Shown here: positions 18,464 through 22,685 of the stretch, piece after piece
Layout of the letters: each line of letters starts with the position of its first letter
Position numbering within the stretch: position 1 is the stretch's first letter
Source: Prevotella sp.
GTDB taxonomy: Bacteria; Bacteroidota; Bacteroidia; Bacteroidales; Bacteroidaceae
Direction: 5' to 3'
Assembly: GCA_024682415.1 (NCBI GenBank)
Contig: JAIKZG010000034.1
Span: forward strand, 1-37,788
DNA length: 37,788 nt
Notes under the pieces: model-generated
Databases searched by the model: none
Told to the model about the DNA's origin: nothing
Seen by the model: only the letters and a program-made list of their open reading frames with translations
Program-made: the position numbers and the translations under genes

Positions 18464-18507
18464 AAATGTGCGCCTGACAAAATGAAAGTCGGGCGCACAT
18501 TTTTTAT
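18464..18507. terminator. Bidirectional terminator
   Basis: AAATGTGCGCC...GAC pairs with GTC...GGCGCACATTT around an 8-nt loop. A-rich and T-rich flanks serve both the small membrane protein gene (plus) and the Dlt-like operon (minus); the stop codon of the SGNH-type gene is inside the right arm. Confidence 0.8.
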
Positions 18508-19496
18508 TTATATAGCTGCTTCATCATCTCGTTGCCTACTACGGCGCGATAATGACCGGGGTCATAATAATAATGATAGTCGCGATATTTTGCGTGGGCT
18601 TCGTCAGAGAAGTTGAGCACATTTTTCGGGCCGAACACATCTTTTATTATCTTCAAATCAGCCTTGCTTATACATTCACATTTGAATGTAGGGCCGATGG
18701 CAATCTTGATGTCGCTTCCTAAAGAGTCGCATAATGCTTTAATCTTGCTAAGGCATTCTCTCTGCTTGGTCTTTATTACGGCAGCATGCACCGATGGCTG
18801 GCATTTCTGGTTATGCCAATCTCTTTCCTGCCAATATTTCTCACCATATTTCTTTATGTAATCGTCTTGCCACATTACAGCATCGTTTGTGAGACGGTCG
18901 CGGATTTTGCCGTTTATGTTGATTACATCCCTCATTGAGTTGTCATATTTGTGGGTGAACTGGTATTTCAGAAAAGGAGAGAGGAAACTTGGCATATAGA
19001 AAGCCTGCAGGAACTCTATCTGAAAACTCATTCTGCTCATTCCGCTTACATCGGGTGGCATAATGTGAACTACGCCAGCCTGTGGCAAGTCGTGCTCAAA
19101 AATATATGGCTCGGCTACGATGAGCATATGCTTTATTTCCTGATCGGGCTGCTTTGCCAACGCCTGAAGTTTAAGGAGAATATCGCCTATTCCCTCGTCG
19201 TTGCAAAACATGCGGTAAGGACGGCCCTTAATGTATCTGTTCCAGTCGTAGGTGCGGAAAGCCTTGCTGCATGATGTTCCGAATATGAAGGAATCGTAGC
19301 GCATCTGCTTTCTGTGGTCTTTGTATTTTGTCCATGCTATCATGCCCTCGCTTTGCTGTATCGAGGGGCTGTCGTAGTCATCGTAATGGCGCAGCACCAT
19401 GAAAGGGTCTAACACAAAATAACTTATCAGCAGAGCCAGAAAAGGAGAGGCTGCCAGCACGCATTTTATGATGAATGTAAATAGATTACGCTTCAT
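18504..19496 (-). CDS. SGNH-hydrolase-like membrane-anchored protein (DltD-position)
   Basis: Last gene of the Dlt-like operon; 330 residues. It has an N-terminal membrane anchor (about residues 8-30) and then a periplasmic domain. Two catalytic-looking motifs are visible. FIFGTSCSKAF contains Ser75 in a block I-like setting, and YYYDPGHYRAVVGNEMM near the C-terminus contains Asp312 and His315 as in the SGNH D-x-x-H. Similar proteins sit next to MBOAT acyltransferases, where they hand the acyl group to the final acceptor or trim it, as DltD or AlgX/AlgJ do. Overall similarity to Gram-positive DltD is not evident from reading, so the role is inferred from position and motifs. Nine bp separate it from the MBOAT gene. 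Confidence 0.7.
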   Translation of the reverse strand: MKRNLFTFIIKCVLAASPFLALLISYFVLDPFMVLRHYDDYDSPSIQQSEGMIAWTKYKDHRKQMRYDSFIFGTSCSKAFRTYDWNRYIKGRPYRMFCNDEGIGDILLKLQALAKQPDQEIKHMLIVAEPYIFEHDLPQAGVVHIMPPDVSGMSRMSFQIEFLQAFYMPSFLSPFLKYQFTHKYDNSMRDVININGKIRDRLTNDAVMWQDDYIKKYGEKYWQERDWHNQKCQPSVHAAVIKTKQRECLSKIKALCDSLGSDIKIAIGPTFKCECISKADLKIIKDVFGPKNVLNFSDEAHAKYRDYHYYYDPGHYRAVVGNEMMKQLYK

Positions 19497-19505
19497 GTGT
19501 GTAGG

Positions 19506-20876
19506 TTAAAATTGAATGTAGATAAAATTGTCCACACCGAAAGCTCCGTAGAGGAATATCAATGTGATGAATACAAAGTAAATGGGCCAGCGCAGATAAG
19601 TCTTCTGGCAGGCAGTCCATTTAATGATGTCGCAGCGAGAATTCACGTATTCCCACGCAAACATCAGCACCGTGGCAATGCCAAAGGCTATCCATTCACT
19701 GTCTTTCAGGCATAGGCGCAAATCCTTTACATAGAATGACGACCAGTCAAGTATGTGGGTATATGTGTAGACCACATCGTCGAGATTTGCTATGCGGAAG
19801 AATAGTAGCGAGATGGCAAACAGCAGATATGTGCGCACCATCATTATAGGCTTATACGCCTTGTCGCCCATAAACGCGCGCAGACTGTCGTGCCATTTCT
19901 TTGTGGCTGTCTCGTAAATGATTACTACGCCTTGAAACAATCCGTATAGAGCGAATGTCCAGCCTGCTCCGTGCCACACTCCGATTGTCACGAATGTGGT
20001 GATTATGGCAATGTAAATTCCCCATTTCTTCATGTGGCGCAGCTCGGCGGAAAGCGGTGTGTAGATGTAGTCACGGCACCAGAAAGAAAGGGATTGATGC
20101 CAACGACGCCATAGCTCGCCCGTAGTAAGCGAGATGAAAGGGCGGTCGAAGTTTGGCGTGAGGGTAAACCCGAACATCGCGCCGAGTCCGAGAGCCATAT
20201 TGGTGTATCCCGCGAAATCAGCATACAGCTGAATAGGATAGAGCATAGTGGCAATAAACAGTTGAGGCCCAGTGGCGCTTTGCACGTCATTGAACACGGA
20301 ATCCAATGACGGAGCTATCCTGTCGGCAATTACTAGTTTCATAAATGCTCCCCACGCCATCAGCTTCAGTCCTGCCACCACCTTTTCATAATTGAAGGGG
20401 TGAGCTTTTTTGAGTTGAGGCAACAAGTCGTAGCATCGCTCGATAGGGCCTGAGAGAAACTTCATGAACAGAAGCATGTAGACGGAAAACTTTATCGGGT
20501 CTTCCTCCGGCTCTTCTTCCCAATAGATTTCTATCAGATAAGATATTGCTTGAAAAGTGTAGAATGATATGCCTAAGGGGAAGAACGGAGAAGCATAACG
20601 TGCGGTGAGCCAAATGCCCACCAACACCGCTATGCTTACTGATAGCATCCATAATCCGATTTTCTTCTCTAAGTTCTTATGCAGCAGCTTGCCTGCGACA
20701 AAGGTGAAAGTCGTTATTCCCAATGCGTAGATTAGGAATGCCCAGTTATAGTAGCCTATAAAGACAATGCTTGCTGTAAGAAGCAGAATATGTTGCAAGC
20801 GGCGATTGCTTTTTATGTAGTATAAAAGAAACGTTACTATGATAAAAGCAACAAATGGCAATGAAAGAAATTCCAT
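19506..20876 (-). CDS. MBOAT family membrane O-acyltransferase (DltB/AlgI-like)
   Basis: Integral membrane protein of 456 residues with about eleven hydrophobic segments. The MBOAT signatures are GELWRRWHQSLSFWCRDYIY and GVWHGAGWTFALYGL, in which His302 is the invariant catalytic histidine. The family transfers acyl or aminoacyl groups from a cytoplasmic donor to an acceptor across the membrane: DltB for D-alanine, AlgI for acetate. Here a dedicated carrier protein and adenylation enzyme lie directly upstream in the operon, which favours a DltB-type aminoacyl donor rather than acetyl-CoA. The C-terminus ends in a hydrophobic helix. The start at 20876 is 20 bp after the carrier-protein stop. 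Confidence 0.9.
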   Translation of the reverse strand: MEFLSLPFVAFIIVTFLLYYIKSNRRLQHILLLTASIVFIGYYNWAFLIYALGITTFTFVAGKLLHKNLEKKIGLWMLSVSIAVLVGIWLTARYASPFFPLGISFYTFQAISYLIEIYWEEEPEEDPIKFSVYMLLFMKFLSGPIERCYDLLPQLKKAHPFNYEKVVAGLKLMAWGAFMKLVIADRIAPSLDSVFNDVQSATGPQLFIATMLYPIQLYADFAGYTNMALGLGAMFGFTLTPNFDRPFISLTTGELWRRWHQSLSFWCRDYIYTPLSAELRHMKKWGIYIAIITTFVTIGVWHGAGWTFALYGLFQGVVIIYETATKKWHDSLRAFMGDKAYKPIMMVRTYLLFAISLLFFRIANLDDVVYTYTHILDWSSFYVKDLRLCLKDSEWIAFGIATVLMFAWEYVNSRCDIIKWTACQKTYLRWPIYFVFITLIFLYGAFGVDNFIYIQF

Positions 20877-20896
20877 ATCTTCTTATAAGGTCGCCG

Positions 20897-21145
20897 TTAT
20901 TTGTCTTCGTATTTGCTGAGGATAGTGTCGCAGAGCGCGCCTATATTCTTCATCTTGATAATCTCGCGAAGTTTCAGCTTGATGCAGAATGTATCTTCCA
21001 CTTCGCTTATGATTGTCATGTTGGTCACCGAGTCCCATGCCTCAATATCGTTGGTGGTCATGTCGTCGTTGATAACGATCATTGGTTCGTTAAGCACTTT
21101 CGCGAATATGCCGCGCAAAGTGTCTTTTACTTCTTCTCTTGTCAT
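20897..21145 (-). CDS. Acyl/aminoacyl carrier protein (DltC-like)
   Basis: An 82-residue carrier protein. IEAWDSVTNM gives the phosphopantetheine attachment Ser39 in the W-D-S-V/L context, typical of DltC and related carriers rather than fatty acid ACP (DSLD). It would carry the activated amino acid as a thioester from the adenylation enzyme to the MBOAT protein. Its ATG overlaps the stop of the adenylation gene by 4 bp, so expression is coupled. Confidence 0.9.
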   Translation of the reverse strand: MTREEVKDTLRGIFAKVLNEPMIVINDDMTTNDIEAWDSVTNMTIISEVEDTFCIKLKLREIIKMKNIGALCDTILSKYEDK

Positions 21146-22623
21146 CCTATTAATTGTTTAATTTGTTTTCTGTCTATTTTGTTGTTGGCGTTCTGAGGAA
21201 ATTTGCCTATGAAATGTATCTCCTGTGGCATCATGTAGGCAGGGAGTTTCGATTTCATGTAGTCGTGAAGCTCCTTCTCCTGCTTGTCGTCCTTTCCTTC
21301 CAAGGCAAGCTGTATAAAGTTGTTGCCCTTGTCGTCGCTGTTTACCACTGCCACGGTTGCAATTTCTCCGTTGAAGAATTCTCGTGCCACGCATTCTATC
21401 TCGCTCAGCTCTATGCGATAGCCTTGTATCTTCACCTGTGAGTCTTTTCTGCCATAATATGCAATGTCGCCATCGGCATCGGCTTTGCATATATCGCCCG
21501 TGCGGTAATATCGTGTGCCGTTCTTTCCTATGAAGAAAGCCTCCTTGTTCTTCTCCTCATTCTTCCAATAGCCAGGGGTGAGCTGTCCGCCGGCAAGACA
21601 TAATTCGCCAGTTTCGCCCACAGCGCATGGAGTGCCATCATCATTCATTACGATAGCTTCCACGCCGCGCATAGCCTTGCCTATTCCCACATTGCCGTTC
21701 ACATGCTTTATCTCGCCAGAGGTGTTGAGCTTATATGTGGTGCAGTAGATGGTGCATTCCGTAGGGCCATACACATTCCACAGCATGGCGTTGGGCACGC
21801 ACTGCTCCCATGCTTTCAGATCGTCGAGGTTGAGTGCTTCGCCGCAGAACAGAGAATAGCGCATATCCTTAGCCTCTATCTCGTCCATGTAAGGGCGCAG
21901 ACAATGTATCACCGAAGGCACCATCAGCGCGGCTGTGAGATTGTATTCATCAAGCAATCGGAACACGCCTTGATATTTTATCAGGTTGTATGGCACAGTA
22001 TATACGCATGCGCCTGCCATCAGCGGCAGCAGATATGACTGCACGGAGAGGTCGAAAGTGAGGTCAAACATCTGCAAGCAGCGGTCTGTGTTAGTGAGCT
22101 TTATGCCCATGTCAGCCACTGCTGCCGTGAATGAAGCCACATTTCCGCGAGTGATAGGCACACCCTTTGGTCTGCCTGTGCTGCCCGATGTGAATAATAT
22201 GTAGGCGAGCGACTCGTCAGATGTTTTTACGGGCTGAGTCATTTCCGCTTCGTCAGTCAGAGTGGCGGTGCTTATAATGTCGTGATTTGTGTATCGTGTG
22301 TTTTCGCTTGAGTCGAGGATTGTTGTTATTCCCACCTGCTCAATGATGTCAAGACATCTGTCGAGAGGCTGTCCGGGGTGGAGTGGCACATAGCATTTTC
22401 CCTCCATCCATAGAGCCAAAATAGAAGCATAGGTATTTATATCGTCGTTGGCTACCAGTCCGATATTTTTGCTTTCCACTTTGCTTAACGCTTTTCTGAT
22501 GGCGGCAACACGTTTTTTCAGATAAGCATAATTATAAAATTGGTCGTCAATGCAAAAGGCGTTCTTTTCTTTGTCTGCTTCGAGAGTATTCACTATCGGA
22601 GCAATCACTTTTTCGTCAAACAT
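21142..22623 (-). CDS. Amino acid adenylation enzyme (DltA-like)
   Basis: ANL-superfamily ligase of 493 residues that should activate an amino acid with ATP and load it on the carrier protein encoded next. Core motifs in order: P-loop YILFTSGSTGRPKG (141-154); A4 FDLSVQS with Asp191, the residue that usually binds the amino group; A5 NVYGPTE (283-289); YYRTGD; GRKDSQVKIQGYRIE; and the C-terminal catalytic lysine Lys482 in NANNKIDRK. It is a stand-alone domain of DltA size, without condensation or thioesterase domains. The FDLSV motif agrees with DltA, which uses D-alanine, but the full specificity pocket was not compared. It is first in the operon, with a -7 box 55 bp upstream. Confidence 0.88.
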   Translation of the reverse strand: MFDEKVIAPIVNTLEADKEKNAFCIDDQFYNYAYLKKRVAAIRKALSKVESKNIGLVANDDINTYASILALWMEGKCYVPLHPGQPLDRCLDIIEQVGITTILDSSENTRYTNHDIISTATLTDEAEMTQPVKTSDESLAYILFTSGSTGRPKGVPITRGNVASFTAAVADMGIKLTNTDRCLQMFDLTFDLSVQSYLLPLMAGACVYTVPYNLIKYQGVFRLLDEYNLTAALMVPSVIHCLRPYMDEIEAKDMRYSLFCGEALNLDDLKAWEQCVPNAMLWNVYGPTECTIYCTTYKLNTSGEIKHVNGNVGIGKAMRGVEAIVMNDDGTPCAVGETGELCLAGGQLTPGYWKNEEKNKEAFFIGKNGTRYYRTGDICKADADGDIAYYGRKDSQVKIQGYRIELSEIECVAREFFNGEIATVAVVNSDDKGNNFIQLALEGKDDKQEKELHDYMKSKLPAYMMPQEIHFIGKFPQNANNKIDRKQIKQLIG

Positions 22624-22677: not shown

Positions 22678-22685
22678 CAAAAGTA
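22678..22685 (-). promoter_or_regulatory. -7 box of the Dlt-like operon
   Basis: TACTTTTG on the minus strand (22685-22678) fits the Bacteroidota -7 consensus 55 bp before the adenylation gene's ATG. No clear -33 TTTG is found at the usual distance, so the promoter may need an activator or be weak. Confidence 0.45.

Follow-up and report, generated by a model that had tools for sequence, protein, structure and literature searches.

Does a Gram-negative member of the Bacteroidales carry a dlt operon, which in Firmicutes serves the D-alanylation of teichoic acids, and if it does not, what could a set of genes that looks so much like one be doing there? The question is raised by contig JAIKZG010000034.1 of a Prevotella sp. 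genome (assembly GCA_024682415.1; 2.52 Mb, 49 contigs, 86.9% complete), the entire 37,788 nucleotides of which form the window analyzed here. Four genes lie on its minus strand in the order A-C-B-D. They encode a stand-alone amino acid adenylation enzyme (A, 22623–21142, 493 amino acids [aa]), a carrier protein (C, 21145–20897, 82 aa), a membrane acyltransferase of the MBOAT family (B, 20876–19506, 456 aa) and an N-terminally anchored protein with a predicted SGNH fold (D, 19496–18504, 330 aa), which is the predicted final transferase. An earlier interpretation made from the DNA alone, in the following called the sequence-only reading, took this set for a complete Dlt-like aminoacylation operon. 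We propose, at a probability of nearly 80%, a carrier-fed operon in which A and C charge an amino acid, B relays it via its own residue Tyr453, and D esterifies an acceptor in the cell envelope.

The relay is suggested by the C-terminus of B. Its last six residues (451–456) read FIYIQF and, together with the stop codon, occupy positions 19526–19506 of the minus strand; we predict that they form an acyl-shuttle motif around Tyr453 that replaces the microprotein DltX. According to PMC12148441, the Dlt route leads from DltC through DltB to the tyrosine in the C-terminal FxYxxF of DltX and from there to DltD, while PatA-type MBOATs have FxYxxF at their own C-terminus, placed on two extra helices, and acetylation of the motif tyrosine has been demonstrated for PatA. 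A carrier is reported there for Dlt alone, the other MBOAT-SGNH pathways being fed by acyl-coenzyme A (CoA). In all six frames of the window, the pattern F.Y..[FYW] at a distance of 0–3 residues from a stop occurs exactly once, at the end of B. The DltX family (PF12459) gave no match in the genome, which is 87% complete, in a family-level search that recovered the B. subtilis and L. lactis controls and whose scope does not extend to a DltX of unrelated sequence. The claim of a complete Dlt-like set needs a correction: the set has no DltX, and the predicted relay motif, which had been overlooked, sits on B instead.

The motif is not a peculiarity of the window. FxYxxF is terminal in 118 of the 120 listed MBOAT matches, and the remaining two are shorter proteins (429 and 365 aa). 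In an alignment of 45 MBOATs (the window protein, 31 of these 120 listed matches and 13 from loci), the residues His302, Phe451, Tyr453 and Phe456 are identical throughout. An AlphaFold2 model of B (predicted local distance difference test, pLDDT, 89.7; predicted template modelling score 0.88) contains two late helices ahead of the tail, 392–414 and 426–443, which we read as the two extra helices of PatA-type MBOATs. FxYxxF by itself is common; the unusual feature is its fusion to an MBOAT that is paired with a dedicated adenylation enzyme and a carrier.

This pairing is conserved. When an alignment of seven MBOATs was used to scan genome contigs, 220 relatives were obtained, of which the best 80, from 79 loci, were retained. 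Sixty of these loci, again from the best 80 of 220, encode an MBOAT with at least 42% identity to that of the window, and 57 of the 60 show A-C-B-D on one strand and in this order, with median gaps of 12, 13 and 5 bp. In the window, C overlaps A by 4 bp (21145 versus 21142), and gaps of 20 bp and 9 bp separate C from B and B from D. The three exceptions are L113, L138, where the carrier piece falls below the score limit of 80, and L144, which is cut by the contig end. L113 carries a tandem duplicate of C-B-D with A on the opposite strand, and the pocket code of this A is that of the other MBOAT group described below. A chance neighbourhood of four genes is ruled out by the 57 ordered loci.

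The phylogeny of the MBOATs follows the gene order. In a tree of 128 rows built by a quick method and without rows of 380 aa or less (L145 among those dropped), the 64 rows labelled as belonging to A-C-B-D loci form one side of a single branch with a Shimodaira–Hasegawa-like approximate likelihood ratio test value of 100; the label, which was set per locus and so takes in L113 (two rows), L138 and L144 outside the strict count, requires one change, compared with a mean of 43 after shuffling. Pairwise distances of the proteins are also correlated across 52 loci, host relatedness being uncontrolled, with r = 0.89 for A-B, 0.92 for A-D and 0.86 for B-D, and lower values of 0.69 to 0.79 for pairs that include C; this calculation excluded nine loci in which a gene was split, short, missing or duplicated. 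The sequence-only reading had described a four-gene set on one strand with a carrier gene overlapping that of the adenylation enzyme, all of which is found at the positions given, and the survey of operon conservation in Bacteroidales that it had suggested thus returned 57 of 60 loci in order and a single MBOAT clade. The operon is real, is conserved as one unit and recurs patchily across the Bacteroidales.

Conservation extends to the predicted active sites. A script check located every residue that had been named before: FDLSV at residue 190 of A with Asp191, NNKID with Lys482, WDSV at residue 37 of C with Ser39 as the predicted phosphopantetheine site, WHGAGW of B with His302, and GTSC with Ser75 and DPGH with Asp312 and His315 in D, a protein with a single, N-terminal hydrophobic segment. 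Among the C rows of the 60 loci, 57 of 59 have WDS or WNS and the other two WTS. Ser75 and His315 are identical in all 41 aligned D proteins (the window protein and 40 of the 64 D rows).

The patchiness is evident at each taxonomic level. Within the genus, a relative of A at E ≤ 1e-90 is present in 7 of 150 genomes, own included, and all seven contain the four genes together. One of them, G024, encodes the closest MBOAT among those compared in one search (71%); its A is distributed over two open reading frames (ORFs) of 138 and 338 aa (L052, 7612–9089), with C, B and D whole. Across the phylum, A was found at E ≤ 1e-110 in 3 of 296 genomes, own included, and neither B nor D stands beside A in the regions of the other two. 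Operon-bearing rows of the MBOAT tree come from Prevotellaceae, Bacteroidaceae, Odoribacteraceae, Marinifilaceae and Marinilabiliaceae, and the named hosts include Segatella, Hoylesella, Hallella, Prevotella, Phocaeicola, Butyricimonas, Odoribacter, Ancylomarina, Carboxylicivirga and Bacteroides, the last with B. fragilis, B. cellulosilyticus and B. oleiciplenus among its species. The earlier remark that related operons occur in a few Gram-negatives thus holds in that the set recurs in several Bacteroidales families, yet it remains patchy, with 7 of 150 genomes in the genus. The first scan of genome contigs with D as query returned no relative; a protein search with D returned nine, named just once, as "hypothetical protein". 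In the literature searched, a scope outside which most subscription papers fall, none of the titles and abstract openings listed describes the Bacteroidales operon.

How closely is the set related to Dlt? A, C and B belong to the expected families: A scores above the cut-off of TIGR01733, the general model for amino acid adenylation (322.6 versus 317.4 bits), and matches AMP-binding PF00501 (190.5 bits), C matches PP-binding PF00550 (29.6 bits, cut-off 20.8) and B matches MBOAT PF03062 (63 bits). As Dlt equivalogs, A and B fail: A scores 253.3 bits against the DltA model TIGR01734, whose cut-off is 559.85, and B 158.4 bits against the DltB model TIGR04091, whose cut-off is 375. Nevertheless, DltA models rank second and third among the NCBIfam matches of A, and B matches no NCBIfam model other than that of DltB. 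Against the curated models, A and B of the B. fragilis locus L141 gave the same outcome. At the level of predicted structure, the closest solved folds to the model of B are the DltB entries 6bug (E = 3.4e-12) and 8jem (E = 1.2e-11), and the nine best Foldseek rows for the model of D are DltD (best E = 1.8e-3), so that a DltB-like fold is predicted for B and an SGNH fold for D. Of the Dlt-like operon claimed earlier, the conserved set of adenylation enzyme, carrier, DltB-fold MBOAT and SGNH-fold protein stands, while A and B remain below the DltA and DltB cut-offs and D lies outside DltD in its sequence. Because these four constitute a conserved set, the best reading is that an amino acid is carried to the periplasmic side.

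Which amino acid this could be was approached through the pocket of A. The computed pocket residues are Asp191, Leu192, Gln195, Leu233, Leu258, Cys260, Val284, Ile292, Tyr293 and Lys482, giving the code DLQLLCVIYK at positions that we take to correspond to GrsA 235 to 517. The amine-binding Asp and the Lys are each retained by 60 of 61 A rows, and both deviating rows are fragments of a single split A. Since the pocket keeps both residues, a fatty or aryl acid is disfavoured as substrate; the sequence-only reading had expected an amino acid, and the pocket comparison that it had proposed agrees with it. In B. cereus DltA, according to PMC8972799, the methyl group of D-alanine is surrounded by Leu, Met and Cys268, the last of which discriminates against L-alanine. 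Mapped onto A by motif and spacing, without an alignment to DltA, Leu192 and Cys260 would take the places of this Leu and of Cys268, and Gln195 that of the Met. The DltA model, run over 15 genomes in search of a true DltA pocket, found none above cut-off (0 of 15), and in a PDB search with a clostridial A, LgrA alignments were the only ones among the matches listed. The genome itself contains one phosphopantetheinyl transferase family match and two alanine racemase family matches, one of them strong. Because of its pocket we favour, with moderate confidence, D-alanine or glycine for the A of the window.

No such claim is made for a second class of A. Two pocket code classes track two MBOAT groups: a code starting with DVV, for instance DVVAVTLIYK, is found in 24 of 24 rows whose MBOATs show 43–48% identity to that of the window and in 0 of 28 rows of the MBOAT group with at least 58% identity, a count that left out L113, which breaks the class rule.

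Relatives of A also occur with other partners. In a survey of the order, relatives of A at E ≤ 1e-75 were found in 25 of 295 genomes, own included. Twenty regions around such relatives, accounting for 21 of 26 such matches beyond the window, were examined: a carrier is present in 17 of the 20, A-C-B-D in 3 and a different MBOAT in 8. In the three regions tested for it (L194, L197 and L206), a GNAT-type protein is encoded between A and the carrier. A Segatella copri plasmid (NZ_CP085933; L166, 7992–11890) encodes, in this order, a relative of A, a carrier, an Antibiotic_NAT-type transferase and an alanine racemase; its A is 43% identical to that of the window and has the Asp and Cys columns in common with it. 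Among the hints of alanine, this link to a racemase is the best. The plasmid cassette sits inside a polysaccharide locus with phosphonate genes. As A-carrier cassettes occur with varied partners, the A-C pair suggests a portable aminoacyl donor in Bacteroidota.

Several further loci depart from the Bacteroidales arrangement. Four loci of Clostridial/Bacilli metagenomes (L149, L162, L164 and L165) encode A, an acidic carrier-like protein of 74–76 aa and an MBOAT of 526–533 aa ending in F[VM]YxxF; the codes of their A proteins start with DAK, and in three of the four an extra ORF of 336–358 aa follows the MBOAT. They possibly represent a Gram-positive form without DltX. In L198, L199 and L204, A is accompanied by a protein of 223–229 aa, a carrier, two large proteins and an MBOAT. 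The like-placed L197 gene of the 223–229 aa protein is a GNAT by Pfam. Those of the large proteins that were tested are GDSL-type: both from L198, of which one has LysM repeats, plus one from L204. Perhaps these loci transfer an N-acylated amino acid. Finally, an adenylation enzyme is missing from L056 and L067, which pair a carrier with a fused-motif MBOAT. The carrier of L056 is preceded by an FkbH-like protein, which, given the role that we assume for FkbH, suggests a glyceryl-type donor.

Taken as a pathway, the operon would work as follows. A and C would load C with a small amino acid, for which D-alanine and glycine are the likely candidates; B would pass the aminoacyl group from C to Tyr453 on its own C-terminus; and D, encoded directly after B as a separate predicted SGNH partner in the manner of PatAB-type pairs, would take it over from Tyr453 by transfer to Ser75 and esterify an envelope acceptor in the periplasm. 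We infer the acyl-Tyr453 intermediate and its transfer to Ser75 by analogy to published work on Dlt and PatA. Clustering of the neighbours of the 60 loci, some of them cut by contig ends, linked no acceptor gene to the operon: the largest cluster, with nine loci, is an ORF antisense to the operon itself, and the next ones contain seven, six and five loci. In the window, the genes with matches (methionine synthase, MTHFR, TamL, GMP synthase, a 2-oxoacid oxidoreductase, FolD, Ffh and others) include none that points to the synthesis of lipopolysaccharide (LPS) or capsule. Because nothing recurs beside the cassette, our guess is that a generally present component, such as LPS core or lipid A, peptidoglycan or a general glycan, is a likelier acceptor than a capsule encoded alongside.

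Two elements flank the operon. The octamer TACTTTTG at 22685–22678 of the minus strand, 54 nucleotides upstream of A, resembles what we take to be the consensus of the Bacteroidales –7 box; no TTTG was found at the expected distance upstream of it. Between the operon end and a convergent cupin gene, a terminator-like stem of 20 pairs extends over 18089–18046 of the minus strand.

A number of observations weigh against the proposed pathway. D is outside DltD by sequence: searched against Pfam at E ≤ 5 it gave an insignificant Reprolysin match alone (12.9 bits) and no DltD model. For its structural model no Foldseek row reaches E = 0.001, and generic SGNH esterases and PatB tie with DltD by Z score. 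Residue 312 of D is Asp in 23 of the 41 aligned proteins and Glu in the other 18. The tail of the B model, which bears the presumed shuttle motif, is of low confidence, with a pLDDT of about 50 in the last residue block, and in several of the 57 ordered loci (L125, L135, L136 and L145) the frame of A, B or D is split. Regarding the amino acid, A finds its best PDB match in LgrA domain 2, which we take to be a glycine module and which also has a Cys in the D-alanine-selecting column; this column is variable among 60 rows, with 17 Cys, 28 Thr, 12 Ala and 3 Ser. Since LgrA domain 2 shares the Cys and the column varies, the Cys is no proof of D-alanine. The racemase-linked A of the Segatella copri plasmid has an otherwise different code (DFSQICMVFK), and no assay of any operon member was found.

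These observations leave room for other explanations. The nearest concerns the donor: it could be another α-amino acid (Ser, Thr or a larger one), the two pocket types reflecting two amino acids, so that D-alanine or glycine would be wrong for at least one branch. The two discrete code classes that follow the two MBOAT groups speak for it, although L113 breaks the rule, the codes depend on the GrsA numbering that we adopted, and a reference A domain with a DVV code was not encountered in this analysis; we regard it as a serious but lesser possibility. The LgrA match, given the glycine specificity of that domain, would fit a system that resembles AlmEFG and puts glycine on lipid A; we consider this improbable. 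AlmE does activate glycine (PMC12930378), but the described AlmG is an LPLAT-type transferase (PMC3783018), whereas the operon has an MBOAT-SGNH pair; the Alm system was rejected on this transferase type, B being an MBOAT.

It could also be that B and D are an envelope O-acetyltransferase pair fed by CoA and merely adjoin A and C, which would activate an amino acid for use elsewhere. In one set of 41 loci examined, FxYxxF closes all 42 MBOATs, yet both A and C are present in just 4 of the 41, which indicates that a B-type protein can act without A and C; relatives of A with other partners point the same way. However, 57 of 60 loci keep the four genes together, the linked MBOATs form a single clade and A-D distances correlate at r = 0.92, and we give this explanation very little weight. 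Least weight of all is given to a canonical Dlt system acquired from Gram-positives and D-alanylating a teichoic-acid-like polymer. The DltB fold of B, the leading DltD rows of D and the ranking of DltA and DltB models among the NCBIfam matches are what such an origin would predict, but A and B are far below the equivalog cut-offs, the order is A-C-B-D and not X-A-B-C-D, and the operon MBOATs are a Bacteroidales clade with identities to the window protein down to 42%. Moreover, like DltX, the DltD family (PF04914) has no match in the whole genome (87% complete), with the B. subtilis and L. lactis controls positive. Canonical Dlt was rejected on the failed cut-offs of A and B and the absent DltX and DltD matches. 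We retain the proposed carrier-fed operon with its own relay motif.

Compared with known systems, this operon combines features of several. With dlt(X)ABCD it shares an adenylation enzyme, a carrier, an MBOAT with a conserved His and a single-anchor SGNH protein, along with the predicted DltB fold of B, and DltD entries lead the fold matches of D; it differs in scoring below the DltA and DltB cut-offs, in the lack of DltX and DltD family matches, in the motif on B, in gene order and in its Gram-negative Bacteroidales host. PatA/PatB and the MBOAT-SGNH pairs of alginate and cellulose modification resemble it in the shuttle motif at the MBOAT C-terminus and the separate SGNH partner, but they are described in PMC12148441 as carrier-less and dependent on acyl-CoA, whereas A and C belong to the unit in 57 of 60 loci here. 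AlmEFG, responsible for lipid A glycylation in Vibrio cholerae, likewise places an adenylation enzyme and a carrier in a Gram-negative (PMC3783018, PMC12930378), but in the accessible text of PMC3783018 AlmG is LPLAT-type and neither an MBOAT nor an SGNH protein is described. The dlt operons of Dickeya and Pectobacterium, to which we liken the operon by description and not by sequence, are Gram-negative dlt genes that probably modify LPS (PMC5541007); unlike the operon described here, Gram-negative species are reported there to possess a DltX of the same topology.

We lean, by a modest degree, towards regarding the operon as a third architecture of envelope acylation in Bacteroidales: a carrier-fed, self-shuttling MBOAT that would aminoacylate a surface glycan or lipid without DltX, with two pocket-code lineages, possibly for two amino acids, and a parallel fused form in Clostridia. 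The two-way split drawn in PMC12148441, with Dlt (carrier and DltX) on one side and the remaining pathways (acyl-CoA and fused motif) on the other, is crossed by this operon. If the proposal is correct, a single mechanism unites the branches of Dlt and PatA. The co-occurrence of carrier and fused motif in one operon makes the acyl-Tyr relay model directly testable. Changes in surface charge and resistance to peptides, which the sequence-only reading had considered, may follow by analogy to Gram-positives. On the proposal of a third architecture, relatives among Bacteroides and Prevotella would bear an ester-linked surface amino acid that has hitherto not been sought. For some species of Bacteroides, Phocaeicola, Butyricimonas, Odoribacter and the Prevotella group, the operon predicts a labile amino acid ester at the cell surface. 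Amino acid esters are readily lost under alkaline conditions, and for this reason such surface modifications could have escaped notice.

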